Of a stretch of DNA of 35,255 nucleotides, positions 2,428 to 11,596 are shown piece after piece. The number at the start of each line of letters is the position of its first letter. Position 1 is the stretch's first letter. The notes beneath the pieces were generated by a model, which ran no database searches, was not told the DNA's origin, and was given only the letters and a program-made list of their open reading frames with translations. The translations under genes and the position numbers were made by a program. Origin of the DNA: Ignavibacteriota bacterium (GTDB lineage: Bacteria > Bacteroidota > Ignavibacteria > UBA10030); assembly GCA_003155495.1 (NCBI GenBank), contig PMDB01000112.1:1-35255 (forward strand), read 5' to 3'.

Positions 2428-2446
2428 GGTAGTGGGGTCTTTTGAA
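2428..2446 (+). repeat. E1 left terminal inverted repeat
   Basis: GGTAGTGGGGTCTTTTGAA, a perfect inverse match to 6412-6430. It shares GGTAGTGGG and CTTTGAA-like ends with the E2 repeat. Confidence 0.92.
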
Positions 2447-2550
2447 TGTTGAAAGTGGAGTTGATTATATCCATATTAAGGTATCAAAAAGCTTCTTCTT
2501 TGATTATTTTTGGGTTATATTTTTCTTTTCAAAAATATTGCGAGGTTAAT

Positions 2551-2688
2551 ATGGGTAAATCAAACAAGACTACATCTGCTCCTGCACCGGCTCCAAAACC
2601 AGCAGCACCACCTCCGGTTAATATACCAAAAGTCGATCCGAATGTATTGACAAAATCAATTACATCCGTGACTATTAAAAAGAGATAA
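2551..2688 (+). CDS. 45-residue Pro/Ala-rich peptide of E1
   Basis: The start is set at ATG 2551 because GCGAGG lies 6-10 nt upstream. An in-frame ATG at 2446 next to the inverted repeat has no SD. The peptide has a basic start (MGKSNKTT), a Pro/Ala-rich linker (APAPAPKPAAPPPVNIP) and a hydrophilic end. The composition resembles small tail-fibre or virion-associated linker proteins, but no function can be given. Its 3' end overlaps the convergent membrane gene by 14 nt. Confidence 0.5.
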   Translation: MGKSNKTTSAPAPAPKPAAPPPVNIPKVDPNVLTKSITSVTIKKR

Positions 2689-3160
2689 ACCATTTCAACA
2701 GAAAGAACATTTCCGTTATAAAGCATATTATCATTAAGATGGAAATCCATACCTTCCAGTTTACTAAAAACTGGTTGTTGGTAAATGCTTCTCCGGCTCG
2801 AATAAGAATGTCGGTTTTGAATTGAAATTCATCCAAAGAATAGAATTCTTCATGTAGAATTTTTGGATGAAGCAATTTAAGAGAACCAACGGCTTTGGTC
2901 GCAAGTCCAGAAATTATTGCACCGACAAATAATATCATTGAACAATAAAACCATTTCGACGAGAAATTGACGGTATAATGTGTAGAAATAAAAGCTATCA
3001 ATGCAAGAGTAACGCTGGATATCCATCCTAAAAGTTTGTCGATTCCACCGTCTATCGCATTAGAGCGATTTATACACCAATCATACGATTTCAGTGCAAT
3101 TTCATAAGCAGGTTTTATGTATGGGTATTGTTCTTCTATTACATTTTTTTTCTTATCCAT
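2675..3160 (-). CDS. E1 cargo: three-helix membrane protein (SLATT-like layout), unknown function
   Basis: The 161-residue product has a charged N-terminal helix (residues ~1-42) and membrane segments at about 43-65, 72-95 and 137-160. The last two are separated by a cytoplasmic helical segment (HPKILHEEFYSLDEFQFKTD). N-terminal helix plus two to three membrane helices recalls SLATT-type effector proteins of bacterial conflict systems, but no diagnostic motif is visible. The start is well supported by TAGGAGG 5 nt before ATG 3160. Expression appears to be gated by a terminator/antiterminator switch immediately upstream (3168-3300). Confidence 0.7.
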   Translation of the reverse strand: MDKKKNVIEEQYPYIKPAYEIALKSYDWCINRSNAIDGGIDKLLGWISSVTLALIAFISTHYTVNFSSKWFYCSMILFVGAIISGLATKAVGSLKLLHPKILHEEFYSLDEFQFKTDILIRAGEAFTNNQFLVNWKVWISILMIICFITEMFFLLKWFISF

Positions 3161-3167
3161 GATTACC

Positions 3168-3300
3168 TCCTAAAATAAAAATGCTCAATTCTTGGATTAA
3201 GAGTTGAGCATTTCGATGATACTTGATTAAGAGTTCGCTGGTCGCTGAAGATCGCTGTGTACGGTGAGCCTTTATACCTTGTGCTTAGTCATGCTCAACT
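3168..3300 (-). promoter_or_regulatory. Predicted transcription-attenuation switch ahead of the E1 membrane protein
   Basis: On the minus strand, AAATGCTCAACTCTT (3213-3199) pairs with AAGAATTGAGCATTT (3193-3179), followed by TTATTTTA: a strong terminator just before the SD and ATG 3160. Upstream, AGTTGAGCAT (3300-3291) is perfectly complementary, over 10 nt, to the terminator's 5' arm (3202-3211), so it can act as an antiterminator. A six-codon ORF (MTKHKV) starts at 3292 inside that antiterminator strand. Between the arms lies about 80 nt with three AGCGA copies. I do not recognise a known riboswitch class. Confidence 0.65.
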
Positions 3301-3307
3301 ACCTTGA

Positions 3308-3336
3308 AAGATATGTCATTGGAAATCAATTGTCAA
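3308..3336 (-). promoter_or_regulatory. Promoter for the attenuated E1 membrane-protein gene
   Basis: On the minus strand TTGACA (3336-3331) and TATCTT (3313-3308) are 17 nt apart. The predicted start near 3301 would put the antiterminator strand 3300-3291 at the very 5' end of the RNA. The -35 box is perfect; the -10 box matches 4 of 6. Confidence 0.55.
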
Positions 3337-3345
3337 TCTCTTTTT

Positions 3346-3939
3346 TCATCTATTGGTTTCTTTCGTAGAAGAGGCGGCTTTCTGTTCTGATGGAGTGTCT
3401 GAATATTTCCAACTTGCGGGAATCCATTGGAGATTTGCTCGATAATAATAGCTCATACTATGAACTTTTTCCAAAGACGAGCGAATATTCGCATTATCAG
3501 AACTATAAATTCTGTCATAAATTTTATGTTCCATATCATAACTTGCAAATTTGTCGCTCCTGAAATTCGTTGCCTCGTCAATAAGCTTTAATGATTGTTT
3601 ATCAAGAAAAAAGGATTCAAAATTCTGAATATCTTTATCGTTGCCGGATTGAATCGAATTTGCCTCAATCTCTATTTTCTTTAGTCCCATAGTCGCATCA
3701 AATCTGTATGTAACAATACCCCTGATATTAGCACCATGCAAATATTCTTCATATTCCAGTTTGTCAGACTCCATATTGTATGGCATCGTTTTGTAAAGAG
3801 ATTGAACTTCGGTCATCGACATTCCCCAAACTGCTCCATTATATATTTTCGGTTTGGAAGCAATATTTTTGATGTTGCAATGTATTGACATTGCTATTAA
3901 TACTATGACAACGAGAATAATCAGGAATGTCTTTTTCAT
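3346..3939 (-). CDS. E1 cargo: membrane-anchored or exported protein, unknown function
   Basis: The 197-residue protein has a hydrophobic N-terminus (residues 4-20) ending in MSIHC. The Cys at 21 could be a weak lipobox, otherwise the segment is an uncleaved anchor. The rest is soluble: NGAVWGMSMTEVQSLY at ~34-49 resembles the W-G-[MT]-[ST]-x-x-[ED]-V/[AL] opening repeat often seen in small periplasmic proteins of Gram-negative bacteria. The tail is hydrophilic, rich in Ser, Thr and Lys. The SD is AAGGTAG upstream of ATG 3939. It starts 18 nt after the transposase stop on the same strand, so it may be read from the transposase transcript. Confidence 0.6.
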   Translation of the reverse strand: MKKTFLIILVVIVLIAMSIHCNIKNIASKPKIYNGAVWGMSMTEVQSLYKTMPYNMESDKLEYEEYLHGANIRGIVTYRFDATMGLKKIEIEANSIQSGNDKDIQNFESFFLDKQSLKLIDEATNFRSDKFASYDMEHKIYDRIYSSDNANIRSSLEKVHSMSYYYRANLQWIPASWKYSDTPSEQKAASSTKETNR

Positions 3940-3957
3940 ATTATGACTACCTTTTGA

Positions 3958-4800
3958 TTACGCCGCTTTTCTTTCTATGTTATTAGAATTTAATAAATCA
4001 TTCCAATTCCAAAGTCTATTTGTGATCTTCGCCTGCATCGCTGGTGTCACTCTTAATGAACTATGAATTCTCATAAAGTTGTAATGGAAGAAATGTAATG
4101 CGATAGCGGCTTTATGATTCTCTAATTTCTTGCTGAATGCGTTTGTTAATCTTGTAAGCCGTCGCATGTTCATTCTCATAGTAAGATTTTGTCTCTCAAT
4201 ATGCGAAGTACTGATTCGCTTCTTTTGGGGATCGCCTAATATTATTCTAAGAGAAGTAGAGACTATCTTGGCAGGGCTATACCGTTTTTCTCCCCTGAAT
4301 TCTTCTGCATAGTTCTTGTGAACCTGTCCATAATCAATATCTTCACCGAATACACGGTCAACGGCTTCATTGTATGCGCTGAAAGCATCTGTAGAAAGTT
4401 GAAAGCGGTTACTAACTCGGAATTGCAAATCCTTTATGATCGTTGTTGCATTTTCTAATGTTCGTTTCCCTACAAGTGAAGAAATAACAAGCTTAGTGTC
4501 TGAATCCATCGCAACAAATACATATTGATCGCCTACTTTTCCAATTCGTCTTTCTTCTTCTGTGCATTCCTTTTGTTTCTTTCCGACATATCCCCAAATC
4601 TCATCCATCTGAACAAAGTTACATTTAAGATTGACTAATTCGGAGTCGAGAATCTCACTGGCTTTCTCTCCATATTCACAGAGAACGCGAATAATAGCTC
4701 TCTTCGTGATTCCTGTGATTCTTTCGATTGAGCGGATACTTAAACCTTCTACAAGGTGTGTCAAAACAAGTTCTTTCTTTTTATTTGATAATACGTTCAT
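3958..4800 (-). CDS. E1 transposase, IS1-type DDE
   Basis: The 280-residue enzyme would cut and join the E1 ends. Residues ~1-45 form an HTH (EGLSIRSIERITGITKRAII). The likely catalytic triad is Asp66 (QMDEIWGYVGKKQK), Asp138 (LSTDAF) and Glu202 (SHIERQNLTMRM), in the motif context of IS1-family transposases. The C-terminal part (FHYNFMRIHSSLR) is also typical. The start is set at ATG 4800 by the SD AAGGAGAAAGCA; an ATG at 4875 would run through the conserved leader hairpins. Unlike classic IS1 (insA/insB frameshift), it is one intact ORF. Its E2 homologue starts at the same residue. Confidence 0.9.
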   Translation of the reverse strand: MNVLSNKKKELVLTHLVEGLSIRSIERITGITKRAIIRVLCEYGEKASEILDSELVNLKCNFVQMDEIWGYVGKKQKECTEEERRIGKVGDQYVFVAMDSDTKLVISSLVGKRTLENATTIIKDLQFRVSNRFQLSTDAFSAYNEAVDRVFGEDIDYGQVHKNYAEEFRGEKRYSPAKIVSTSLRIILGDPQKKRISTSHIERQNLTMRMNMRRLTRLTNAFSKKLENHKAAIALHFFHYNFMRIHSSLRVTPAMQAKITNRLWNWNDLLNSNNIERKAA

Positions 4801-4833
4801 TGCTTTCTCCTTAATTTGGGTCTTGACTTTGAA

Positions 4834-4923
4834 CCCGCAATGAACGATATTTCTAACAGGTCGTTGCTCGTTCAAGCGGGCAATGGTTTTAGAAGCCGTG
4901 GGTGTTTCTGCACTTACGGCTTC
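4834..4923 (-). ncRNA. Structured leader between HTH and transposase genes of E1
   Basis: Two hairpins on the minus strand. The first is GAAGCCGT/ACGGCTTC (4923-4916 with 4899-4892, 16-nt loop). The second has an outer stem CCCGC/GCGGG (4880-4876 with 4838-4834) and an inner stem TGAACGA/TCGTTCA (4874-4868 with 4847-4841). The E2 leader at 10099-10191 keeps both hairpins, the apical-loop sequence and a compensatory pair in the first stem. The likely role is control of transposase expression; a DNA-level role cannot be excluded. Confidence 0.65.
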
Positions 4924-4933
4924 GTTATTTATA

Positions 4934-5131
4934 CTACTTTTGTATTTCTTTCCATCTCTCTATCTCTTCGTTACTTATCAATGTTAATGACTTGAACTTA
5001 TAGGCAGTCATTTTTCCCCAAGACAGATAATTACGAATAGAACTTGGCTCTATACCTAAAATCTTAGCCGTTTCTTTAATCGTAAAGAACTGTGAACCGT
5101 CTGCAATTTTCAATTCTTTTGTCTTTTTCAT
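4934..5131 (-). CDS. E1 small HTH protein (excisionase/MerR-like, HTH_17)
   Basis: The 65-residue protein is almost entirely one winged-HTH unit: FFTIKETAKILGIEPSSIRNYLSWGKMTAYKF, then SLTLISNEEIERWKE. This is the pattern of HTH_17 / excisionase-like DNA-binding proteins. The E2 protein at 9895-10092 aligns along its full length. It lies directly upstream of the transposase in both elements, so it is probably a repressor or an accessory factor for transposition. Its promoter puts the RNA start at or next to the ATG, so it should be leaderless. A 5-bp inverted repeat inside the promoter is a candidate autoregulatory operator. Confidence 0.85.
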   Translation of the reverse strand: MKKTKELKIADGSQFFTIKETAKILGIEPSSIRNYLSWGKMTAYKFKSLTLISNEEIERWKEIQK

Positions 5132-5137
5132 ATGTTT

Positions 5138-5166
5138 AATATACTACATAGAGTATGTATTGTCAA
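5138..5166 (-). promoter_or_regulatory. Leaderless HTH promoter of E1 with operator-like inverted repeat
   Basis: TTGACA (5166-5161), a 17-nt spacer and TATATT (5143-5138) lie 7 nt before ATG 5131. Within the spacer is ATACT-N6-AGTAT (5141-5156). E2 has ATACA-N6-TGTAT at the same place, that is, both half-sites changed together. Confidence 0.75.
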
Positions 5167-5247
5167 GTGAAATCGTAATTATTTTTCACTTTTCTTTCTC
5201 AAAGAAAATACCTATATTTATATAAGCCCGTTGTGAAGCGGGCGGGA

Positions 5248-5319
5248 TTATATTATAGCACGAGCACGAATCGTGAATCCGGCAAAAGAGTCTACGATTC
5301 CGCTCCAGTTGTTTCTCAT
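5248..5319 (-). CDS. E1 23-residue leader-type ORF conserved with E2
   Basis: Too short for ordinary gene calling, but it has a very strong SD (AAAGGAGGGTGAT) and starts at ATG 5319. The product is MRNNWSGIVDSFAGFTIRA plus RAII. E2 has an ORF of exactly the same length (72 nt) in the same place with a related core: FAGFTIRARAII here, FSGTTHKARGII in E2. The DNA also contains GAATCGT...ACGATTC, which can form a hairpin, and a GCCCG/CGGGC hairpin follows the stop. It could be a leader peptide, a small regulator, or the translated part of a structured RNA. Confidence 0.55.
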   Translation of the reverse strand: MRNNWSGIVDSFAGFTIRARAII

Positions 5320-5362
5320 ATCACCCTCCTTTCTTATAGGTTCTTGGTTTTTGTTTACTAAG

Positions 5363-5396
5363 CCCGTTACCGACTGCAATCGGGACGGGTTTTTTA
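5363..5396 (+). terminator. Terminator facing away from the E1 core genes
   Basis: CCCGT (5363) pairs with ACGGG (5389) and an inner CCGA with TCGG, followed by seven T (5390-5396). It would stop plus-strand transcripts that run antisense to the 23-codon ORF. E2 has an equivalent terminator at 9657-9679 in the matching relative orientation. Confidence 0.75.
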
Positions 5397-5410
5397 TTGC
5401 TTTAAATATA

Positions 5411-5496
5411 GCTATGGAATAGGGGATAAGAACTGATGAAAGGATATATAGAACCGCTATGGAACTACTATGGAACTAACTTTAATGGTTCCATAG
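5411..5496. repeat. CTATGGAAC repeat cluster in E1
   Basis: GCTATGGAAT (5411), GCTATGGAAC (5456) and ACTATGGAAC (5467) are direct copies, and GTTCCATAGT (from 5488) is an inverted copy forming a 9-bp hairpin with 5468-5476. There is no T-run on the minus strand, so it is a poor terminator for the gene ending at 5498. It may be a protein-binding array. Confidence 0.5.
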
Positions 5497-5497
5497 T

Positions 5498-5902
5498 CTA
5501 TTGTTTAACTTTTTTTAGGTAAGAATTTCTTAGGTTGTCAATCATCCGAAGTCTTGATTTTCCAGTCAAATCTTGATAAAAGAGCTTAACGGCTTCAACT
5601 GCAATGCCCCTCTTACTGATCTTCTTTTTTTGATTAGATTTCTGCTTTTTGTATTGTTTTGTACACCAAGTTACCGCATCATGAACTTTATTTTCTTCTC
5701 TCATTTCTTTCTCTTTTTGTAACCTTGCTTGACGTTCTCTCTCTTTTAATTCGCCTTGAATCAGATAGTAATCATCTTGGCTTGCATTATCCAAAGAATT
5801 GAAATTCCCGCCCAATTCAAGATATTTTTCCCGAAGTTGTTCATCGTCGATTTTAGCATACTTTTCGGTTAGCAGTCTATATCTTAGTTGGTTCAATGGC
5901 AT
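5498..5902 (-). CDS. E1 cargo: 134-residue basic protein, unknown function
   Basis: The start is placed at ATG 5902 (MPLNQLRYRLLTEKYAKID). A TTG at 5923 lies within a terminator-like hairpin and is less likely. The protein is highly charged and helical: a Glu/Arg/Lys coiled-coil stretch (QGELKERERQARLQKEKEMREE) is followed by a basic region (KKQKSNQKKKISKRG) and a C-terminal helix. The basic, coiled-coil character suggests nucleic-acid binding, but no family is recognised. It is preceded by its own promoter and by a terminator hairpin. Confidence 0.5.
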   Translation of the reverse strand: MPLNQLRYRLLTEKYAKIDDEQLREKYLELGGNFNSLDNASQDDYYLIQGELKERERQARLQKEKEMREENKVHDAVTWCTKQYKKQKSNQKKKISKRGIAVEAVKLFYQDLTGKSRLRMIDNLRNSYLKKVKQ

Positions 5903-5915
5903 CTCTAATAGCAAA

Positions 5916-5950
5916 AAAGGCAATCACACTCTGAGAGTATGATCGCCTTT
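5916..5950 (-). terminator. Terminator/attenuator hairpin upstream of the 134-residue gene
   Basis: On the minus strand AAAGGCgATCAtACTC pairs with GAGTgTGATtGCCTTT, followed by six T, 14 nt before ATG 5902. No gene ends upstream on this strand, so it probably attenuates the 134-residue gene. A weak competing segment (GGAGTAT, 6020-6014) is complementary to part of its 5' arm. Confidence 0.65.
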
Positions 5951-5994
5951 ATCCGTTCAATTAGTACGTGGCAAGATGGTTTTTTCTTATATTA

Positions 5995-6050
5995 TAGTAT
6001 CTTGTAGTATCTTATACTCCAATAATAGAAACATGGTGTCTTAAAGTCAA
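5995..6050 (-). promoter_or_regulatory. Promoter and direct repeats upstream of the 134-residue E1 gene
   Basis: Minus-strand TTGACT (6050-6045) and TATTAT (6027-6022) are separated by 17 nt. Just downstream are two copies of TAGTATCTT on the plus strand (5995-6003 and 6005-6013), spaced 10 bp apart, possibly an operator. Confidence 0.5.
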
Positions 6051-6070
6051 ACTAATTAAGGGATTGTCTT

Positions 6071-6316
6071 ATGATTACTCTGGAAAACTTTAATCCAAAA
6101 CCCCATATACCTATGGAAAAACTTCCTCTTATCAATTATTCCCTTTTGCTCGGTACCTTAGCATCTGTTCAGGCTTTAGATGCCCATATAATCCATCTTA
6201 GTCACCAGTTAGATAATGCCAAAGAGATCGGAACCATTGAAAAGGAATTGAAAGAAAAATACCAAAAATGCGCTGACGAAATAAAGATTCAGCTTTTTTC
6301 TCTTTATGGTTCATAG
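6071..6316 (+). CDS. E1 cargo: 81-residue helical protein, unknown function
   Basis: ATG 6071 follows AAGGGA. Residues ~20-40 are moderately hydrophobic (INYSLLLGTLASVQALDAHI), and the rest is an amphipathic or coiled-coil helix (EKELKEKYQKCADEIKIQLF). No family is recognised. It is transcribed toward the right end of E1, divergently from the 134-residue gene. A weak AACAGA/TCTGTT hairpin follows at about 6330. Confidence 0.5.
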   Translation: MITLENFNPKPHIPMEKLPLINYSLLLGTLASVQALDAHIIHLSHQLDNAKEIGTIEKELKEKYQKCADEIKIQLFSLYGS

Positions 6317-6411
6317 ACTCTTTTATGAGTAACAGAACACCTCTGTTGCTTATTATTGGCAAGTCTAAGATATTGACTGAATGTCTTTTTCGCCTATTTT
6401 GCTTGTTCTGT

Positions 6412-6430
6412 TTCAAAAGACCCCACTACC
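6412..6430 (-). repeat. E1 right terminal inverted repeat
   Basis: TTCAAAAGACCCCACTACC, the exact inverse of 2428-2446. Confidence 0.92.
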
Positions 6431-6438
6431 AAAATTTT
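6431..6438. repeat. Central AAAATTTT shared by E1 and E2
   Basis: A single 8-bp copy separates the right end of E1 from the left end of E2. Together with CCCACTACC and GGTAGTGGG it forms a perfect 26-bp palindrome (6422-6447). It serves as the target duplication for both elements. Confidence 0.9.
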
Positions 6439-6454
6439 GGTAGTGGGCTACTTT
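6439..6454 (+). repeat. E2 left terminal inverted repeat
   Basis: GGTAGTGGGCTACTTT, an exact inverse of 11573-11588. Confidence 0.9.
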
Positions 6455-6710
6455 GAATAACTCCGCCCAAAATAAAAACTTACTTTTTGAGCAAGAAAAG
6501 GAATTTAGACGGTTTGAACTCTCGAATATTGACCAAAAAATACTAAATAAGTATTTCCCCGTTAAAGAAGGGTATAATTTTAATAGATTGTTTGCATTAC
6601 AAATCCTTTTAGAGTTTAAAAAAATCAATACTCTACTTGAGGAGTTGAATGGTCATTATAACAACTCCGGCAATAGTAGCAAAAACTCCAAGAAAAGTAG
6701 CAAGGGTTAA
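6453..6710 (+). CDS. Possible E2 ORF starting inside the terminal repeat
   Basis: TTG 6453 overlaps the end of the inverted repeat and opens 85 codons. The first ~65 residues look protein-like (LLFEQEKEFRRFELSNIDQK, LFALQILLEFKKINTLLEEL). The Ser/Asn/Lys-rich tail is the opposite strand of the convergent membrane gene, which it overlaps by 78 nt. No clear SD and no alternative ATG. Possibly real, function unknown. Confidence 0.35.
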   Translation: MNNSAQNKNLLFEQEKEFRRFELSNIDQKILNKYFPVKEGYNFNRLFALQILLEFKKINTLLEELNGHYNNSGNSSKNSKKSSKG

Positions 6711-6914
6711 CACGATGTTTAACCATAATATTCTTTTTGACAATCCCTCGTTAGATTTTGCGGTTGACTCCATTGATACTCGTAACGAATCAAGTTTGCC
6801 GTCGAGTTCTCGGATTGTTTTGACAAATGCAGTATGCCAATATATGGCAGAACCAAGTCCAGACTCGGCTACGAGGTCTTCTATCTCTTTTTCAAAGAGT
6901 TTTTTAGCATCCAT
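6633..6914 (-). CDS. E2 cargo: 93-residue protein with C-terminal membrane helix
   Basis: The start is placed at ATG 6914 (MDAKKLFEKEIEDLVAES), with AAAGGA upstream. An upstream ATG at 6980 has no SD. The N-terminal ~60 residues are charged and helical (a coiled coil, TIRELDGKLDSLRVSMES), and residues ~65-91 are a strongly hydrophobic segment (LNIVLTLATFLGVFATIAGV). The layout is that of a small tail-anchored membrane protein, such as holin-like or effector-type proteins, but no specific family is visible. Confidence 0.6.
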   Translation of the reverse strand: MDAKKLFEKEIEDLVAESGLGSAIYWHTAFVKTIRELDGKLDSLRVSMESTAKSNEGLSKRILWLNIVLTLATFLGVFATIAGVVIMTIQLLK

Positions 6915-6943
6915 GTTATAATCCTTTGATTTTATGATTAGGA

Positions 6944-7195
6944 ATGAAAAACGATAATAATAAAACATTAATGTTCGCAATTAGCAACAGTCTTAGTAAG
7001 CCTGAAGCTATCAGTTTTGCCCGTACAATGAACGGCGGGGACAGGTGGTATATTACCAAAGTTTTCGAGAACCCCAAAGCCCGCCACATTGAAGACAGAG
7101 AACGATGGGTAGTAGTTCGAGATGTTAGAAAAGGCGAAATTGTGCCGAATGGATATGCGTTGTTTGTGAAGAGGCAAAATTTATTAGAAAATTAG
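6944..7195 (+). CDS. E2 cargo: 83-residue protein, unknown function
   Basis: ATG 6944 immediately follows TAGGA, which is too close for ideal initiation. An in-frame ATG at 6971 (MFAISNSLSK) is an alternative start. The sequence looks globular (FARTMNGGDRWYITKVFE, RERWVVVRDVRKGEIVPNGY) with a C-terminal VPNGYALFVKRQN. No family is recognised. It overlaps the convergent toxin gene by 12 nt. Confidence 0.5.
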   Translation: MKNDNNKTLMFAISNSLSKPEAISFARTMNGGDRWYITKVFENPKARHIEDRERWVVVRDVRKGEIVPNGYALFVKRQNLLEN

Positions 7196-7600
7196 ATCAA
7201 ATATTTCTGGCGGAATATCTTCCTTTATTGATTTTAAACAATCGAGTATTGCTTGTAATTCCCTGCCTATAACCTTATTCTTTAAAAGACTCATTTGTTT
7301 CGATGTTTTTCTACGTTCAAATTCTTCAATCGGCACACTCTCAACAAATTCATATTGAATTATTGACTTGTCTCTATAGAACTCGGTTTGTTGTTTAACA
7401 TAATATACTTTATCATTTTTATTGCAACCTTGCATGTATGGATAATCTCTTTTGTTTGTAGTGGCGGGAACAATTACAACATCTTCGTTGCCTTTATGGT
7501 TTTTATTCAATACTAACAACAATTTATCGCAAGGAATCGGATTATTAGAATAGAAAAACAACTTGTCGTGAAATACTTCTCCCCTTAAATATGAAGGCAT
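7184..7600 (-). CDS. Putative toxin of a Panacea-type pair (MazF/PemK-like barrel)
   Basis: The 138-residue protein begins MPSYLRGEVFHDKLFFY, then DKLLLVLNKN and EDVVIVPATTNK, the strand pattern of MazF/PemK-type SH3-like barrels, which as a family cleave RNA. QTEFYRDKSIIQYEFVESVP and a C-terminal helix (GRELQAILDCLKSI) fit the same fold. It starts 3 nt after the stop of the antitoxin gene, with GGGGAA as SD inside that gene, so the two are translationally coupled. Fold assignment is by pattern only; the catalytic residues are not certain. Confidence 0.6.
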   Translation of the reverse strand: MPSYLRGEVFHDKLFFYSNNPIPCDKLLLVLNKNHKGNEDVVIVPATTNKRDYPYMQGCNKNDKVYYVKQQTEFYRDKSIIQYEFVESVPIEEFERRKTSKQMSLLKNKVIGRELQAILDCLKSIKEDIPPEIFDLIF

Positions 7601-7603
7601 TAT

Positions 7604-8203
7604 TTATTCCCCGTAATTAGCTACAAGTGCCTTCATTTCTTCTATTTTTTCTTTTGCAAGCTCTAAATTTATTGATTTATCCAAATCTGCATATTTAATC
7701 AAATCAATCTTTTTATTTCTTCCTTCTGCTTTTACAGTTCTTGACCAAGGTGTATTAGGTTCATGGGAAGCTTCACTTGCCATCCATGCGGGAGCTTCTT
7801 TAAACATGTCAATAACTTTTTTTAATATTCTTTGTTGTCTCGGTGTAAATACTTTTAAATTTGGAGTTCTCCCTCTCTTAGGATGAAAACCAAATTCTAC
7901 CCCTCTTTTTCCATCTGGTAATGTAAAGATTTCTTTTGAAACACTTAACGAATCTTGCATATATTCTGGTAATATAACATCTTCACCTTTTGTGATTTCT
8001 CTATGGAATTCTGCCGGAACATCTCCCTTTTCCCATGATTCATATTCGAGACTTGTAGCTGGAAGTCCTGTTTCTTCATAGTGCAAATAGTCGAACTTTG
8101 CCAACATTTTATACATCATCATTTTTGTTGGATGTTTTACAGATGAGGAAAAGTAAACGAGGGCTTCTAAGAGAAGTTTCCGATATTTAGGCAAAGTTTT
8201 CAT
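7604..8203 (-). CDS. Panacea-domain (DUF4065, SocA-like) antitoxin
   Basis: The 199-residue protein starts LLLEALVYFSSSVKHPTKMM, then MLAKFDYLHYEETGLPATSL and WEKGDVPAEFHREI, the diagnostic N-terminal layout of Panacea proteins (K-L-x-Y-[ML]-x-D ... G-x-P-[IA] ... GPVP). Near the C-terminus SHEPNTPWSRT matches the conserved S-H-x-x-x-x-W region. Panacea antitoxins are known to neutralise many unrelated toxins by direct binding. Here the partner is the gene at 7184-7600, coupled with a 3-nt gap. The pair could stabilise E2 by post-segregational killing. Confidence 0.8.
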   Translation of the reverse strand: MKTLPKYRKLLLEALVYFSSSVKHPTKMMMYKMLAKFDYLHYEETGLPATSLEYESWEKGDVPAEFHREITKGEDVILPEYMQDSLSVSKEIFTLPDGKRGVEFGFHPKRGRTPNLKVFTPRQQRILKKVIDMFKEAPAWMASEASHEPNTPWSRTVKAEGRNKKIDLIKYADLDKSINLELAKEKIEEMKALVANYGE

Positions 8204-8232
8204 TTATAGGTTGAACGATCAAAGATTAGTGT

Positions 8233-8775
8233 TTAAATTTTGCCTTCGTCCGATTTTAGAGTATCTAAATCTTCAACTTTAAAGCCCGCATTATTCAAAC
8301 ATATATCTCTGAAATAGATTCCACCCGTTCTTCTTATCGTTTCCATGCTCACACCATGCTTATAGGCGGATAATTTCAGAGAGTCTTCAATTTCTTTTTC
8401 AAACGTAAATTCATCGAAGAATTTGAAAGCCCCTTCCTGTATATCATAGGGGTTTGTCATTAGACTACGTTGCTTACACGACGAAAGTAGTTCATCTTTC
8501 TTTTCGTCTATAAATTTTTTCAAACCGCTATCTTCTAAGATCGTTATTCCTTTTGGCAACAGACGGATAGGGGAACCACTGCTATATGTCTTATCCAATC
8601 GCCCGCTTAAATTCGTTAGACGACCATCAAACCCCGAAATAATGTTCCCAAAATCTTCAACTTTTGTCTCAACCCTCGTCAACCTATGAGAAAGATACCA
8701 TGCGCCCGTGATTAAAGCGGCAAGAAGTGTTAGGAGTTTATAAATGCCAATATTAATAACAAAATTTTGTACCAT
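8233..8775 (-). CDS. E2 cargo: 180-residue protein with N-terminal membrane helix and coiled coil
   Basis: A membrane segment at residues ~9-28 (IGIYKLLTLLAALITGAWYL) is followed by a heptad-like region (RVETKVEDFGNIISGFDGRL) and a soluble domain (SPIRLLPKGITILEDSGLKK...). The layout suggests a membrane-tethered soluble domain facing the cytoplasm. No family is recognised. The ATG at 8775 has no clear SD. It lies 29 nt upstream of the antitoxin on the same strand, so it may be the first gene of a three-gene operon. Palindromes overlap its start and promoter region. Confidence 0.6.
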   Translation of the reverse strand: MVQNFVINIGIYKLLTLLAALITGAWYLSHRLTRVETKVEDFGNIISGFDGRLTNLSGRLDKTYSSGSPIRLLPKGITILEDSGLKKFIDEKKDELLSSCKQRSLMTNPYDIQEGAFKFFDEFTFEKEIEDSLKLSAYKHGVSMETIRRTGGIYFRDICLNNAGFKVEDLDTLKSDEGKI

Positions 8776-8834
8776 GACTTTTTTTATGTGTATATAGCCA
8801 CATTCCTATTGCATGCGTACAAATTTTGTACCCA
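8758..8834 (-). promoter_or_regulatory. Two GTACAAA-type palindromes around the start of the toxin-antitoxin operon
   Basis: ACAAAATTTTGT followed by ACC lies at about 8758-8772, overlapping the start of the 180-residue gene. GTACAAATTTTGTAC (perfect, odd centre) lies at about 8818-8833. Two copies of one palindrome bracketing the start region look like an operator pair; the -10 could be TATATA near 8793. Toxin-antitoxin operons are usually autorepressed, which fits. Confidence 0.5.
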
Positions 8835-9152
8835 AGATAAAACACGCAAAACGAGAATTTTTAAAAGAATAACTAATTGATGGTACGTATTGACTTGGTA
8901 AATGTTGCATTCTCGTGTGTAAATAACCGGAAGCTGCACTTCCAATGTATCTTTCAGAATGATACCTCAACCCCATTCACCCATGACCAGTCAGAGAATA
9001 AGAATTATCCATCAAAATAGCAATAGGGAAATATCTGATTTTTGTATCTGTTTTAAAAATCCCCTCAGTAAAGGGTACGGCTTATTTACCGTATATGTTG
9101 AAAAAACTCAATTCACTTGCTTTTATTGGATTGTATTTCTATTCTTTTCATT
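8835..9152. other. Intergenic region of E2 with tandem hairpins, no convincing gene
   Basis: It contains three short inverted repeats: GGAAG/CTTCC (8929-8943), GTATC/GATAC (8947-8965) and TACGG/CCGTA (9076-9093). A 67-codon plus-strand ORF (8959-9162) lacks an SD and overlaps the next gene, so I do not call it. The region could hold a small RNA or the leader of the gene at 9153; nothing is conclusive. Confidence 0.3.
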
Positions 9153-9557
9153 ATGGGAATAGACGGCAAGCATCCAGACAAACCAAAACCCGCTAAATTC
9201 TATATAGATAGTTGCTATAGGGCATATAAAAATGGTATGCCTCCAGAAAAGTACATTGCCGAATTAGAAGACATGTTGAAACGTGCGATTGAGCGCCTAA
9301 TGAGTCAAAATGAAATACTGGCTTCTATAAGACTGGAAGAAATTCGCAATGAAAGATTTATGGGGAAGAAAATTTCACCGGAAAATTTGAAGCTCTACAA
9401 AGAAATTAGAAAAGAATATATAAACCTAAAACAAGAAGCCGGTGAATGTGATTTTAGTACCGCCACAAGAATTGTGGCGAGAAGACACAGAAAACAGTAT
9501 AAAAACCTGTATCCCAATTTTATCAGATGGAAAAATAATTATTGCAAGGAACAATAG
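9153..9557 (+). CDS. E2 cargo: 134-residue basic helical protein, unknown function
   Basis: The start is placed at ATG 9153 (MGIDGKHPDKPKPAKFY). The upstream in-frame extension is hydrophobic and has no SD. The protein is helical and basic (EDMLKRAIERLMSQNEILAS, RIVARRHRKQYKNLYPNFIR). It is close in size and character to the 134-residue protein of E1 next to that element's core, but I see no clear alignment. DNA or RNA binding is possible. A perfect hairpin (9552-9577) overlaps its stop. Confidence 0.5.
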   Translation: MGIDGKHPDKPKPAKFYIDSCYRAYKNGMPPEKYIAELEDMLKRAIERLMSQNEILASIRLEEIRNERFMGKKISPENLKLYKEIRKEYINLKQEAGECDFSTATRIVARRHRKQYKNLYPNFIRWKNNYCKEQ

Positions 9558-9577
9558 CGTTTGCGTAAACACTATTG
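9552..9577. terminator. Hairpin at the end of the 134-residue E2 gene
   Basis: CAATAGcGTTT pairs with AAACaCTATTG around GCGT. The T-run is weak on both sides, so termination is uncertain. Confidence 0.4.
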
Positions 9578-9656
9578 TCTGTTAAGTATAGGCAAAGAAT
9601 AATATTTATAACCCTCCGCATACCTTATCCTCGTTTCGTTATCTTGATTAGCACAT

Positions 9657-9679
9657 AAAAAAGCCCTCACTAAGAGGGC
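9657..9679 (-). terminator. Terminator facing away from the E2 core genes
   Basis: Minus-strand GCCCTC-TTAGT-GAGGGC is followed by six T (9662-9657). It would end transcripts antisense to the 23-codon ORF at 9738-9809, as the terminator at 5363-5396 does in E1. Confidence 0.8.
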
Positions 9680-9737
9680 ATTGTTCCAAAGGGTTAATCG
9701 AAGATGTTTAGACCATCTTCAGAATTAGGAGGTGAAT

Positions 9738-9809
9738 ATGATATACCGAGTTTTCTCTGGCACTACTCACAAAGCCAGAGGTATAATATCGCTCCGATTC
9801 CTTAATTAA
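9738..9809 (+). CDS. E2 23-residue leader-type ORF conserved with E1
   Basis: ATG 9738 follows TTAGGAGGTGAAT, a near-perfect SD. The product is MIYRVFSGTTHKARGIISLR plus FLN, exactly as long as its E1 counterpart and sharing F-[AS]-G-x-T-x-[RK]-A-R-[AG]-I-I. The DNA contains CTCTGGC...GCCAGAG, a 7-bp stem that could make the segment a regulatory hairpin. It lies 85 nt before the HTH gene. Because TATAAT occurs within the conserved end in both elements, part of the conservation could be a promoter rather than a peptide. Confidence 0.55.
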   Translation: MIYRVFSGTTHKARGIISLRFLN

Positions 9810-9860
9810 ATATAGGGAATTATCTTTAAGAAAAAAAGTGAAAAATAGTTACGATTTAAC

Positions 9861-9888
9861 TTGACAAATATACAATATAGTGTATATT
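9861..9888 (+). promoter_or_regulatory. Leaderless HTH promoter of E2 with operator-like inverted repeat
   Basis: TTGACA (9861-9866), a 16-nt spacer and TATATT (9883-9888) are 6 nt before ATG 9895. ATACA-N6-TGTAT (9870-9885) sits between the boxes. About 60 nt upstream, including AGTGAAAAATA and TTACGATTT, is nearly identical in E1. Confidence 0.75.
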
Positions 9889-9894
9889 GTAGAT

Positions 9895-10092
9895 ATGAAA
9901 ACAACGATAAAAATAGACAAACCAAAAGATACTTCATACTTCACGGTGCAAGAAGCCGCCGATGAATTAGGTATCAATACACAAACTATAAGAGATTATC
10001 TTGTAAAAGGCATAATGAAAACTTACAAGTTTAAGACTCTTACTTTGATTAGTAAAGAAGAAGTAAAACAACGGAAGCAAAAACAGAAATAA
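9895..10092 (+). CDS. E2 small HTH protein (excisionase/MerR-like, HTH_17)
   Basis: The start is set at ATG 9895, where the promoter predicts the RNA to begin. An ATG 15 nt upstream lies within the -10 region. The 65-residue protein holds YFTVQEAADELGINTQTIRD, then GIMKTYKFKTLTLISKEEV, which aligns with the whole E1 protein. Such HTH_17 proteins bind DNA as repressors or excision factors. Being first in the HTH-transposase pair and having an inverted repeat in its own promoter, it is most likely an autoregulator. Confidence 0.85.
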   Translation: MKTTIKIDKPKDTSYFTVQEAADELGINTQTIRDYLVKGIMKTYKFKTLTLISKEEVKQRKQKQK

Positions 10093-10098
10093 AATAAC

Positions 10099-10191
10099 GA
10101 ATCCGTAGATACTCGAAATACCTACGGATTCTCAACTCATTACCCGCGTAAACGAGTAACGAACCTATACAAATATCGTTCATTGCGGGTA
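10099..10191 (+). ncRNA. Structured leader between HTH and transposase genes of E2
   Basis: Hairpin 1 is a perfect 10-bp stem, GAATCCGTAG/CTACGGATTC (10099-10108 with 10122-10131). Hairpin 2 has an outer stem TACCCGC/GCGGGTA (10141-10147 with 10185-10191) and an inner stem AACGA/TCGTT (10151-10155 with 10176-10180). In E1 the first stem reads GAAGCCGT/ACGGCTTC: the T-A pair is replaced by G-C. The apical loop (AACGA.CCT.T...AATA) is also kept. Confidence 0.65.
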
Positions 10192-10221
10192 CAAAGTCAA
10201 TAGCCAAGAAAGGGCACTGCA

Positions 10222-11055
10222 ATGAACACATTATCTCTCGAAAAGAAAGTTTTAGTCCTCAACTCCCTCGTTGAAGGCAACTCAATCCGAAGTACTGTCA
10301 GACTCACAGGCGTGAACAAGAAAACTGTCATGCGTTTACTCGTTGAAGCTGGAGAACAAGCGAAAGAAATCCTTGATACTCAAATGGTAGGCATTCAATC
10401 AAGGTATGTGCAGGTAGATGAAATCTGGACTTATGTAGGGAAGAAACAAAAACAACTCACAGAAAATGATTCTAAGGAATTGGGCGATCAATATGTATTT
10501 GTGGCTATGGATGCAGAAACGAAACTTGTTCCCGCCTTCAAAGTAGGGAAGAGAACCTATGGAGTAACAGAATCTTTCATTAAAGATTTACAGTACAGAA
10601 TCAGCACAAGATTCCAGCTTAGTACAGATTCATTCAAACCGTACTTCAATGTAGTCGATTCTATTTTCGGAACTGATATTGATTACGGACAGATTCACAA
10701 AGAGTATAGAGAAGAAGGAAAAGGCGAAAAGCGATACAGTCCCGCTCAAATAATACGAGTCATAATAAACCCATTAATCGGACAGCCGAGTATTAAACAT
10801 ATTTCTACCAGCTTCATTGAACGCCAGAATCTTACAATGAGAATGCAAATGAGAAGATTTACACGATTAACTAATGCGTTTAGTAAGAAGTTAAGAAACT
10901 TAGAATGTGCCGTTGCATTGCATTTCTATCATTACAACTTTATGAGAATTCATTCATCATTGAGAGTAACACCTGCAATGCAAGCGAATGTTACGAGTAC
11001 AATTTGGACATGGGAAAACTTATTACTCGGAACACAGATGAAGAAAGCGGCTTGA
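10222..11055 (+). CDS. E2 transposase, IS1-type DDE
   Basis: The 277-residue homologue of the E1 transposase has the N-terminal HTH (EGNSIRSTVRLTGVNKKTVM) and the likely triad Asp66 (QVDEIWTYVGKKQK), Asp136 (LSTDSF) and Glu200 (SFIERQNLTMRM). The C-terminal FHYHNF-like region reads FYHYNFMRIHSSLR. More than half the residues match E1 by eye. It is intact, with AAAGGG 8-12 nt before ATG 10222. It should act on GGTAGTGGG ends; the slightly different inverted repeats of the two elements may make each enzyme specific for its own ends. Confidence 0.9.
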   Translation: MNTLSLEKKVLVLNSLVEGNSIRSTVRLTGVNKKTVMRLLVEAGEQAKEILDTQMVGIQSRYVQVDEIWTYVGKKQKQLTENDSKELGDQYVFVAMDAETKLVPAFKVGKRTYGVTESFIKDLQYRISTRFQLSTDSFKPYFNVVDSIFGTDIDYGQIHKEYREEGKGEKRYSPAQIIRVIINPLIGQPSIKHISTSFIERQNLTMRMQMRRFTRLTNAFSKKLRNLECAVALHFYHYNFMRIHSSLRVTPAMQANVTSTIWTWENLLLGTQMKKAA

Positions 11056-11125
11056 AGTGTACTCACATTACTATTGTAGCATTACTCACTTCTCGGTACA
11101 TTATAGTGAGGAGAAAGCATACGTT

Positions 11126-11317
11126 ATGAGGAAAAATAATATTAAATACTTTGATCCCGCAGAAGCCGGATTGATTAAACTCAAACAGGTATTACGAAGG
11201 CACAATATAGCTATAGTTAAAGTTGATAATTTACAGCCGTTAAATGAAACGGATGTTATTGTCGGCTTATCAGTTCAGGTTTTTGACAGTTTAAGTTTAG
11301 CTAAAAAATTAAGATAA
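11126..11317 (+). CDS. E2 cargo: 63-residue protein, unknown function
   Basis: ATG 11126 lies 12 nt after AGGAG. The product (MRKNNIKYFDPAEAGLIKLK, then VKVDNLQPLNETDVIVGLSV) looks globular and soluble. No family is recognised. It follows the transposase by 70 nt and may be co-transcribed. Its last 43 nt overlap a convergent small gene. Confidence 0.4.
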   Translation: MRKNNIKYFDPAEAGLIKLKQVLRRHNIAIVKVDNLQPLNETDVIVGLSVQVFDSLSLAKKLR

Positions 11318-11448
11318 ACTTGGAATACTGCGGCATCGTTTACAAGTGTAAGCGCGGTAGTTGTTCCGATAGGTCTTTCACGGTTTAATGTTGAGAAATA
11401 TGCAACGGTCAAATTGCTTGCTACAATATGTTTAGTATTTTCATCCAT
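11275..11448 (-). CDS. E2 cargo: 57-residue protein, unknown function
   Basis: The start is set at ATG 11448 because AAGGGGA lies about 8 nt upstream; the longer frame to 11562 has no SD. The product has ENTKHIVASNLTVAYFSTLN and RPIGTTTALTLVNDAAVFQV. No family is recognised. The 124 nt between it and the right end of E2 holds a GTTCC/GGAAC hairpin and nothing else that I can identify. Confidence 0.45.
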   Translation of the reverse strand: MDENTKHIVASNLTVAYFSTLNRERPIGTTTALTLVNDAAVFQVYLNFLAKLKLSKT

Positions 11449-11572
11449 GATAAATCCCCTTATAGATAGTGAAGTATTTAGTGAATTATTGGCATCACAA
11501 ACATGATAAACATTACACCTAAAAGCAATATAAGTTCCCGAAAGCGGAACGAAGAGACTCATGGAAGAATCT

Positions 11573-11588
11573 AAAGTAGCCCACTACC
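11573..11588 (-). repeat. E2 right terminal inverted repeat
   Basis: AAAGTAGCCCACTACC, the exact inverse of 6439-6454. Confidence 0.9.
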
Positions 11589-11596
11589 AAAATTTT
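11589..11596. repeat. Right copy of the target-site duplication AAAATTTT
   Basis: It abuts the E2 right end and overlaps the next promoter: its last TT are the first two bases of the -35 box TTGACT. Confidence 0.9.

Follow-up and report, generated by a model that had tools for sequence, protein, structure and literature searches.

Two elements and a common core

The window analysed here (the whole 35,255-nt stretch of contig PMDB01000112.1 from an Ignavibacteriota bacterium) holds two complete mobile elements, E1 (2428..6430, minus strand, 4003 bp) and E2 (6439..11588, plus strand, 5150 bp). A TIR/TSD search found that the inverted ends of both elements open with GGTAGTGGG (the TIR being GGTAGTGGGGTCTTTTGAA in E1 and GGTAGTGGGCTACTTTGAA in E2) and that a palindromic 8-bp target, AAAATTTT, occurs three times: to the left of E1 (2420-2427), between the elements (6431-6438), and to the right of E2 (11589-11596), with the middle copy being the TSD common to both. 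The three copies imply that whichever element came second entered at, or next to, the target already used by the first. The arrangement is thus a tandem insertion of two different elements at a single AAAATTTT site.

Outside the TIRs, the sole substantial alignment between E1 and E2 is a core of about 1.3 kb (852/1276 positions identical, 67% at the DNA level, E=1e-157), which begins upstream of the HTH promoter, stops where the transposase ends, and has the same gene order in both elements: short ORF, HTH, noncoding leader, and transposase. No alignment was obtained between their cargo. An earlier note on this DNA had described a common core in one order with differing cargo, along with two conserved noncoding blocks, and both descriptions stand, the latter because E1 and E2 resemble each other more closely in the promoter (81% identity) and the leader (77%) than in the HTH (60%) and the transposase (63-64%). 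The cargo of E2 (7184-8775) includes a SocA/Panacea-domain protein (7604-8203) beside a 138-aa ORF, a candidate toxin-antitoxin-like pair; defence models run on the cargo of E1 and E2 gave zero matches.

The transposases of E1 (3958..4800, minus strand, 280 aa) and E2 (10222..11055, plus strand, 277 aa) have an IS1-like DDE domain, scoring above gathering for Pfam DDE_Tnp_IS1 (41.2 bits on a 305-aa ORF in E1 and 29.0 bits in E2; cut-off 24.1) and under the cut-off of 100 for NCBIfam IS1 (NF033558; 70.3 and 59.6 bits, respectively). With the IS1 family (InsAB') the elements have in common this domain, a TIR starting GGT, and an 8-bp TSD. They differ from it in having a single-ORF transposase of 277-280 aa and a length of 4.0 and 5.15 kb with cargo, and they lack the canonical traits of an insA/insB' programmed frameshift and a size of about 0.7-1.2 kb without passengers. 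Canonical IS1 elements are regulated by InsA and frameshifting, and the control of E1 and E2 differs. Judging by sequence, we file E1 and E2 as IS1-like and not as IS1, their transposases being only remote homologues.

Relatives were gathered from 294 genomes of the class and from a GTDB-wide contig collection, yielding 114 distinct transposase copies. Many belong to elements of about 1.9-5.2 kb with TIRs of the form GGTAGTG... and a perfect 8-bp TSD, and their cargo varies by element, with Pfam matches that include DNA methylase, Mrr-type endonuclease, SocA/Panacea, NYN, and PIN domains. In the transposase tree, a leader clade of 28 sequences (mostly from Ignavibacteria, Kryptonia, Chlorobi, and related groups) and acidobacterial relatives split from a large clade of other phyla. 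Many transposases of this distant clade have, on reading the sequences, a TTGAC promoter directly before the ATG and no leader. In members such as L095, L098, L143, and L145, the TTGAC promoter abuts the transposase, carries a repeated AAGCAT/TGCTTG, and leaves hardly any 5' UTR; it is possibly a different kind of promoter, autoregulated by the transposase.

The transposase leader and its opposite strand

Segment B3 of the leader (CGUUCAUUGCGGG in E1 and E2) is complementary both to an upstream arm, B5, and to the transposase start region (GCAAUGAAC). In E1 (minus strand), B5, the anti-sequestor arm, lies at 4868..4880, B3 at 4834..4846, and the start region with which B3 can pair, GCAAUGAACG, at 4794..4803; in E2 (plus strand), the corresponding positions are 10143..10155, 10177..10189, and 10219..10227. 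Start-site sequestration by a leader segment is found in 29/29 leaders (mean z -3.2, with z<-2 in 23) when tested with a sliding split (a fixed window overlooks the more closely spaced leaders). In the distant transposase clade, no such sequestration is seen (z about 0).

Both pairings covary in the 28 leaders aligned with a covariance model, R1. For the OFF pairing (B3:start, with B1), to which the alignment was not fitted, 79.4% of cells are paired against 27-46% in slid controls, with changes on both sides in 14/18 pairs. For hairpin A and the ON pairing (B5:B3), to which the alignment was fitted, the figures are 82.6% against 34-39%, with double changes in 22/23 pairs; the 82.6% is probably an underestimate, since the columns of the lower stem of hairpin A are off by one between subgroups. 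B5 and the start site can be near-identical direct repeats in wholly different sequence, as in L136 (CTTGTAGCGAAC twice), and the three-way relation is likewise kept in L052 (GGCAAGCC twice), despite its unrelated sequence, and in the held-out L171 (CTTTGTAACGAACA twice). The ON and OFF states are nearly isoenergetic (median OFF-ON -2.2 kcal/mol).

When R1 was searched against 391 genomes, its matches adjoined a transposase except for a weak one (L173) and one in L167, a 1682-bp non-autonomous element (L167:1060-2741) with TIRs and a TSD (CAATAAAA) that has no transposase and keeps the leader/antisense gene. Such an element might repress its relatives in trans. Across the window, Rfam returned only tRNAs elsewhere and no family at gathering score in the core, on which ground a riboswitch, ribozyme, or known leader was rejected.

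The bases conserved outside the helices lie on either side of B3 (AAAGTCAA/AAAATCAA on its 3' side and AAATATC/AAATATA on its 5' side), and on the other strand they read as a promoter, TTGAYT-17-KATATT. The mean best promoter score around B3 is 8.3 on the antisense strand against 3.8 on the sense strand (p<0.05 in 16/30), and the promoter is also present in the held-out L177 and in L167; it is poor in the subclade L040/L042/L128. In E1 (plus strand), the promoter TTGACT-17-GATATT (4823..4851), whose spacer contains B3, precedes a predicted antisense RNA of about 75 nt (4858..4933, fold z -7.6) with a terminator hairpin A (4892-4923) followed by GUUAUUUAUA. In E2 (minus strand), the same promoter (10172..10200) precedes a predicted RNA at 10088..10165 (fold z -6.6) with hairpin A at 10099-10131 and GUUAUUUUAU. 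Both RNAs fold as two near-perfect hairpins, and the predicted 5' ends of many members are GGUC or a close variant.

A U-tract follows hairpin A on the antisense side in 16/28 members and on the sense side in 2/28, which rules out hairpin A as a sense-strand transcription attenuator; about ten members have a second hairpin in place of the U-tract. The A-B1 fold is more stable as antisense RNA in 27/27 leaders (median -13.3 kcal/mol), with a p of 1.5e-8 that is nominal because the members are related. In A and B1, A.C mismatches on the sense strand (G.U pairs in the antisense RNA) number 68 against 17 sense G.U pairs, compared with 32 against 43 in the ON/OFF helices. If A and B1 work in the antisense RNA, selection tolerates changes there that keep a G.U pair, and these are seen as A.C on the sense strand. 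We rate this asymmetry, which shows the antisense strand to be under selection, above any other individual result. The loop of hairpin A contains YUNR in 24/28 members on the sense strand and 19/28 on the antisense strand (counts made without a shuffle control), and not in E1. A weak full-length Rfam match to the P22 sar antisense RNA on the same strand (4860-4927, 68 nt; 25.7 bits against a gathering score of 43) covers the E1 antisense interval, and at this sub-threshold score it is an analogy and not a homology.

The earlier note had suggested a family of regulated transposons with a defined control module, and this is supported: the leader, with its covarying RNA switch and predicted antisense gene, is found in 26/27 close relatives. 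To judge from the sequences, the part that defines this control is the leader and not the HTH, and its key ingredient, new relative to the earlier note, is the predicted antisense RNA gene.

The HTH gene and the short leader ORFs

The HTH genes of E1 (4934..5131, minus strand) and E2 (9895..10092, plus strand) each encode a 65-aa protein that passes the cut-offs for NCBIfam excisionase (TIGR01764, 29.5 and 31.7 against 28.8) and Pfam HTH_17 (PF12728, 35.6 and 31.3 against 27), a family assignment that does not imply excisionase function. Each has its own promoter matching 11/12 consensus positions: TTGACA-17-TATATT in E1 (5138..5166, minus strand), with the palindrome CATActcTATG in the spacer, and TTGACA-16-TATATT in E2 (9861..9888, plus strand), with the palindrome AATATAC-N8-GTATATT. 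In E1 the -10 box ends 7 nt before the HTH ATG, so that the transcript is predicted to be leaderless. A near-consensus promoter, a spacer palindrome, and a 7-nt gap to the ATG would suit a leaderless, autorepressed operon.

The HTH is an optional part. It lies within 1.2 kb upstream of only 5/114 transposases (those of E1, E2, L116, L117, and L039), and a search for the HTH by itself in 391 genomes gave close matches at these same five places and at one site cut by a contig end. On a careful tree its distribution needs four changes, the gene having been gained or lost several times, and a single-clade origin of the HTH-bearing elements is rejected (p-AU 1.6e-72). Sister elements without it include L115, whose transposase is 84% identical to that of E2, and L126 (76% to E1). 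The promoter and leader of E1 and E2 are closer to each other (81% and 77%) than their leaders are to those of their own sisters (57% and 61%), which suggests that the regulatory segment moved as a cassette.

The 23-codon leader ORFs of E1 (MRNNWSGIVDSFAGFTIRARAII, 5248..5319, minus strand) and E2 (MIYRVFSGTTHKARGIISLRFLN, 9738..9809, plus strand) both have AGGAGG-type SDs and, like the HTHs, are present as the earlier note described them. Motif comparison places FxGxxxxARxII at residues 12-23 in E1 and 6-17 in E2, and this offset makes their identical length a coincidence. The motif is common to E1, L120, L035, L115, E2, L037, and L116 and is conserved in the coding frame only (mean BLOSUM 2.44 in frame against 0.3 out of frame). 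Other relatives have, on reading the sequences, MSxVLKxI-like leader peptides, and four acidobacterial elements have an MPPPP...ANxxxR ORF with an SD, giving three mutually unrelated versions of the short ORF, which several members lack altogether. Within the C-terminal motif, every Ile codon is AUA (about 15 elements, by inspection), compared with 19% AUA in the transposase genes. A role in ribosome pausing at rare codons or polyproline is plausible. The AUA-AUA codons may double as a -10 box in E1, L035, and L120 (TGCTATAAT), but the box is absent in most others.

Several further structures lie upstream of the transposase. Possible H-type pseudoknots are seen in the short ORFs of E2 (9755-9800; GAGU/ACUC and CUCUGGC/GCCAGAG), L037 (CGGUU/AACCG and UCUGGC/GCCAGA), and L116. 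tRNAs or tRNA-like sequences lie between the leader ORF or cargo and the transposase in L039 (5495-5580), L064 (3310-3399), L043, L046, L049, L065, and L125; their anticodon arms are odd or missing (ARAGORN gives 'gata' in L039 and 'ta' in L064), and they are perhaps processing or mimicry elements. In both L121 elements and in L130, another structured RNA replaces the short ORF about 150-200 nt upstream of the transposase; it is partly conserved (GAAAYCTAAG...GGACTCWGCA), and the L121 copy sits between GCATGC arms with a T-run.

Could the family nonetheless be defined by a fixed unit of HTH, 23-codon ORF, leader, and transposase? Such a unit holds for E1 and E2, and the leader ORFs of E2, L116, and L037 are related. 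With the HTH in 5/27 close relatives, four changes on the tree, and sister elements that lack it, an obligatory HTH is ruled out and the fixed unit is refuted as stated, leaving that definition almost no credence. Constant co-occurrence of HTH, 23-codon ORF, and transposase, which the earlier note had put up for checking, is refuted on the same counts, on the p-AU value, and on the three unrelated versions of the ORF. The same note had asked whether most close homologues lack both HTH and leader: the HTH is indeed missing from most, but the leader is not.

A proposed antisense-controlled attenuator

Here, we propose that the conserved core attenuates the translation of an IS1-like transposase under the control of an antisense RNA, a model that we consider probable. 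Its computational basis is the covariation of both pairings, the strand-specific selection on the antisense fold, and the conservation of promoter and terminator; from there on, we infer that the antisense RNA is produced, that it inhibits the transposase, and that the HTH acts as a repressor. The mRNA leader would comprise three segments, B5, B3, and the ribosome-binding/start site. In the ON state B3 would pair with B5 and leave the start site open, and in the OFF state it would pair with the start site itself. The antisense RNA, encoded on the opposite strand, would begin immediately 5' of B3 and end at hairpin A, spanning A and B5 and excluding B3. On the nascent mRNA it would tie up B5 and stop short of B3, leaving B3 to close the transposase start, a geometry that favours inhibition. 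More copies of the element would mean more antisense RNA, and transposase synthesis would in this way be limited by copy number. In E1, E2, and three relatives, the excisionase-type HTH would come first in the operon, transcribed from a promoter of its own whose -35 and -10 boxes flank a palindrome, and is by analogy probably a CopG-like autorepressor; in other members a translated short leader ORF would take its place. Blocking A to B5 lowers the predicted accessibility of the start only modestly (from 0.36 to 0.24 on average) since many members already have OFF as their ground state. The ON state hence probably depends on co-transcriptional folding, which the model needs.

An OFF ground state in most members, together with an ON state able to form before the start site is transcribed, would also suit a timer acting in cis, in which the leader is ON while nascent and settles into OFF once the mRNA is released, giving a burst of translation that needs neither ligand nor antisense RNA. 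This is improbable in our view, as the conserved antisense promoter, the terminator, and the fold asymmetry would be left unexplained. The asymmetry would be equally unexplained if ribosome pausing on the short ORF selected between B5:B3 and B3:start and the antisense features were secondary, an option that draws on the in-frame conservation of the peptide, the all-AUA Ile codons near its C-terminus (AUA-AUA in the Ignavibacteria-type elements), and the MPPPP-type ORF of the acidobacterial elements. We hold it to be unlikely, though the most credible of these alternatives, since several members have no ORF and, in the HTH-bearing elements, the HTH gene intervenes between the short ORF and the switch. 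Alternatively, the antisense RNA might unfold a structure in which the ribosome-binding site is buried and so activate the transposase; activation has been reported for Asr9 of ISPpu9 (PMC8450116), a precedent from another transposase. The RNA predicted here, however, starts upstream of B3 and would remove the anti-sequestor B5 and not the sequestor, making activation highly improbable.

Antisense-controlled attenuation finds its nearest parallels in plasmids. In pMV158, the CopG repressor and the antisense RNAII are coupled in the copG-repB intergenic region, with RNAII acting on translation (PMC4485353). The order copG-RNAII-repB would match the HTH-bearing elements part for part, with an autorepressor gene first, an antisense RNA on the opposite strand of the intergenic region, and the controlled protein second, whereas RNAII has 48 nt and one hairpin (about 75 nt and two hairpins are predicted in the elements) and the controlled protein is a replication initiator and not a transposase. 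CopG is, moreover, a ribbon-helix-helix protein, whereas that of the elements is an HTH_17 protein. The ctRNA of repABC plasmids, encoded between repB and repC, switches the leader between an inhibitory fold and one that leaves the repC SD/start open (PMC3155836). The elements are similarly predicted to change their leader fold by means of an antisense RNA from the intergenic region, but the inhibitory fold of repABC is an intrinsic terminator, whereas theirs would be a start-site pairing without a sense U-tract.

Among transposons, ISPpu9 has both the antisense RNA Asr9 and a structured 5' UTR, and Asr9 activates its transposase (PMC8450116). Antisense RNA and 5'-UTR structure likewise bear on a transposase there, but in another transposase family and with the opposite sign. 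Antisense RNA and/or 5'-UTR structure also control the transposases of IS10 (RNA-OUT) and IS200 (art200), which again belong to other families, and in IS10 the antisense RNA covers the start codon itself. To our knowledge, none of IS10, IS200, and ISPpu9 has both a B5/B3/start switch and an optional HTH repressor. A search of the open literature found no report of an antisense-controlled IS1-like or ISMhu11-type element. By analogy, we regard the arrangement, which is absent from Rfam, as convergent with the control of pMV158 and repABC plasmids.

In light of this, what might the core represent? We are moderately inclined to see it as a new RNA regulatory family whose locus has a double function, encoding an antisense RNA and, on the strand opposite to it, a bistable start-codon switch. 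Such a locus would bring plasmid-like copy-number control to multi-phylum, cargo-carrying IS1-like transposons with interchangeable upstream modules (an HTH repressor, an AUA- or polyproline-bearing leader peptide, or a tRNA-like element). R1 provides a sequence model that finds these elements, and strand asymmetry in an alignment (G.U against A.C) can reveal the functional RNA strand of a conserved hairpin. If the proposal is true, a compact bistable RNA would be available for study, and element-specific immunity between copies would be predicted. Transposons carrying restriction enzymes, methylases, and toxin-antitoxin-like proteins would then have arrived by their own evolution at the combination of repressor and antisense RNA that governs plasmid copy number.
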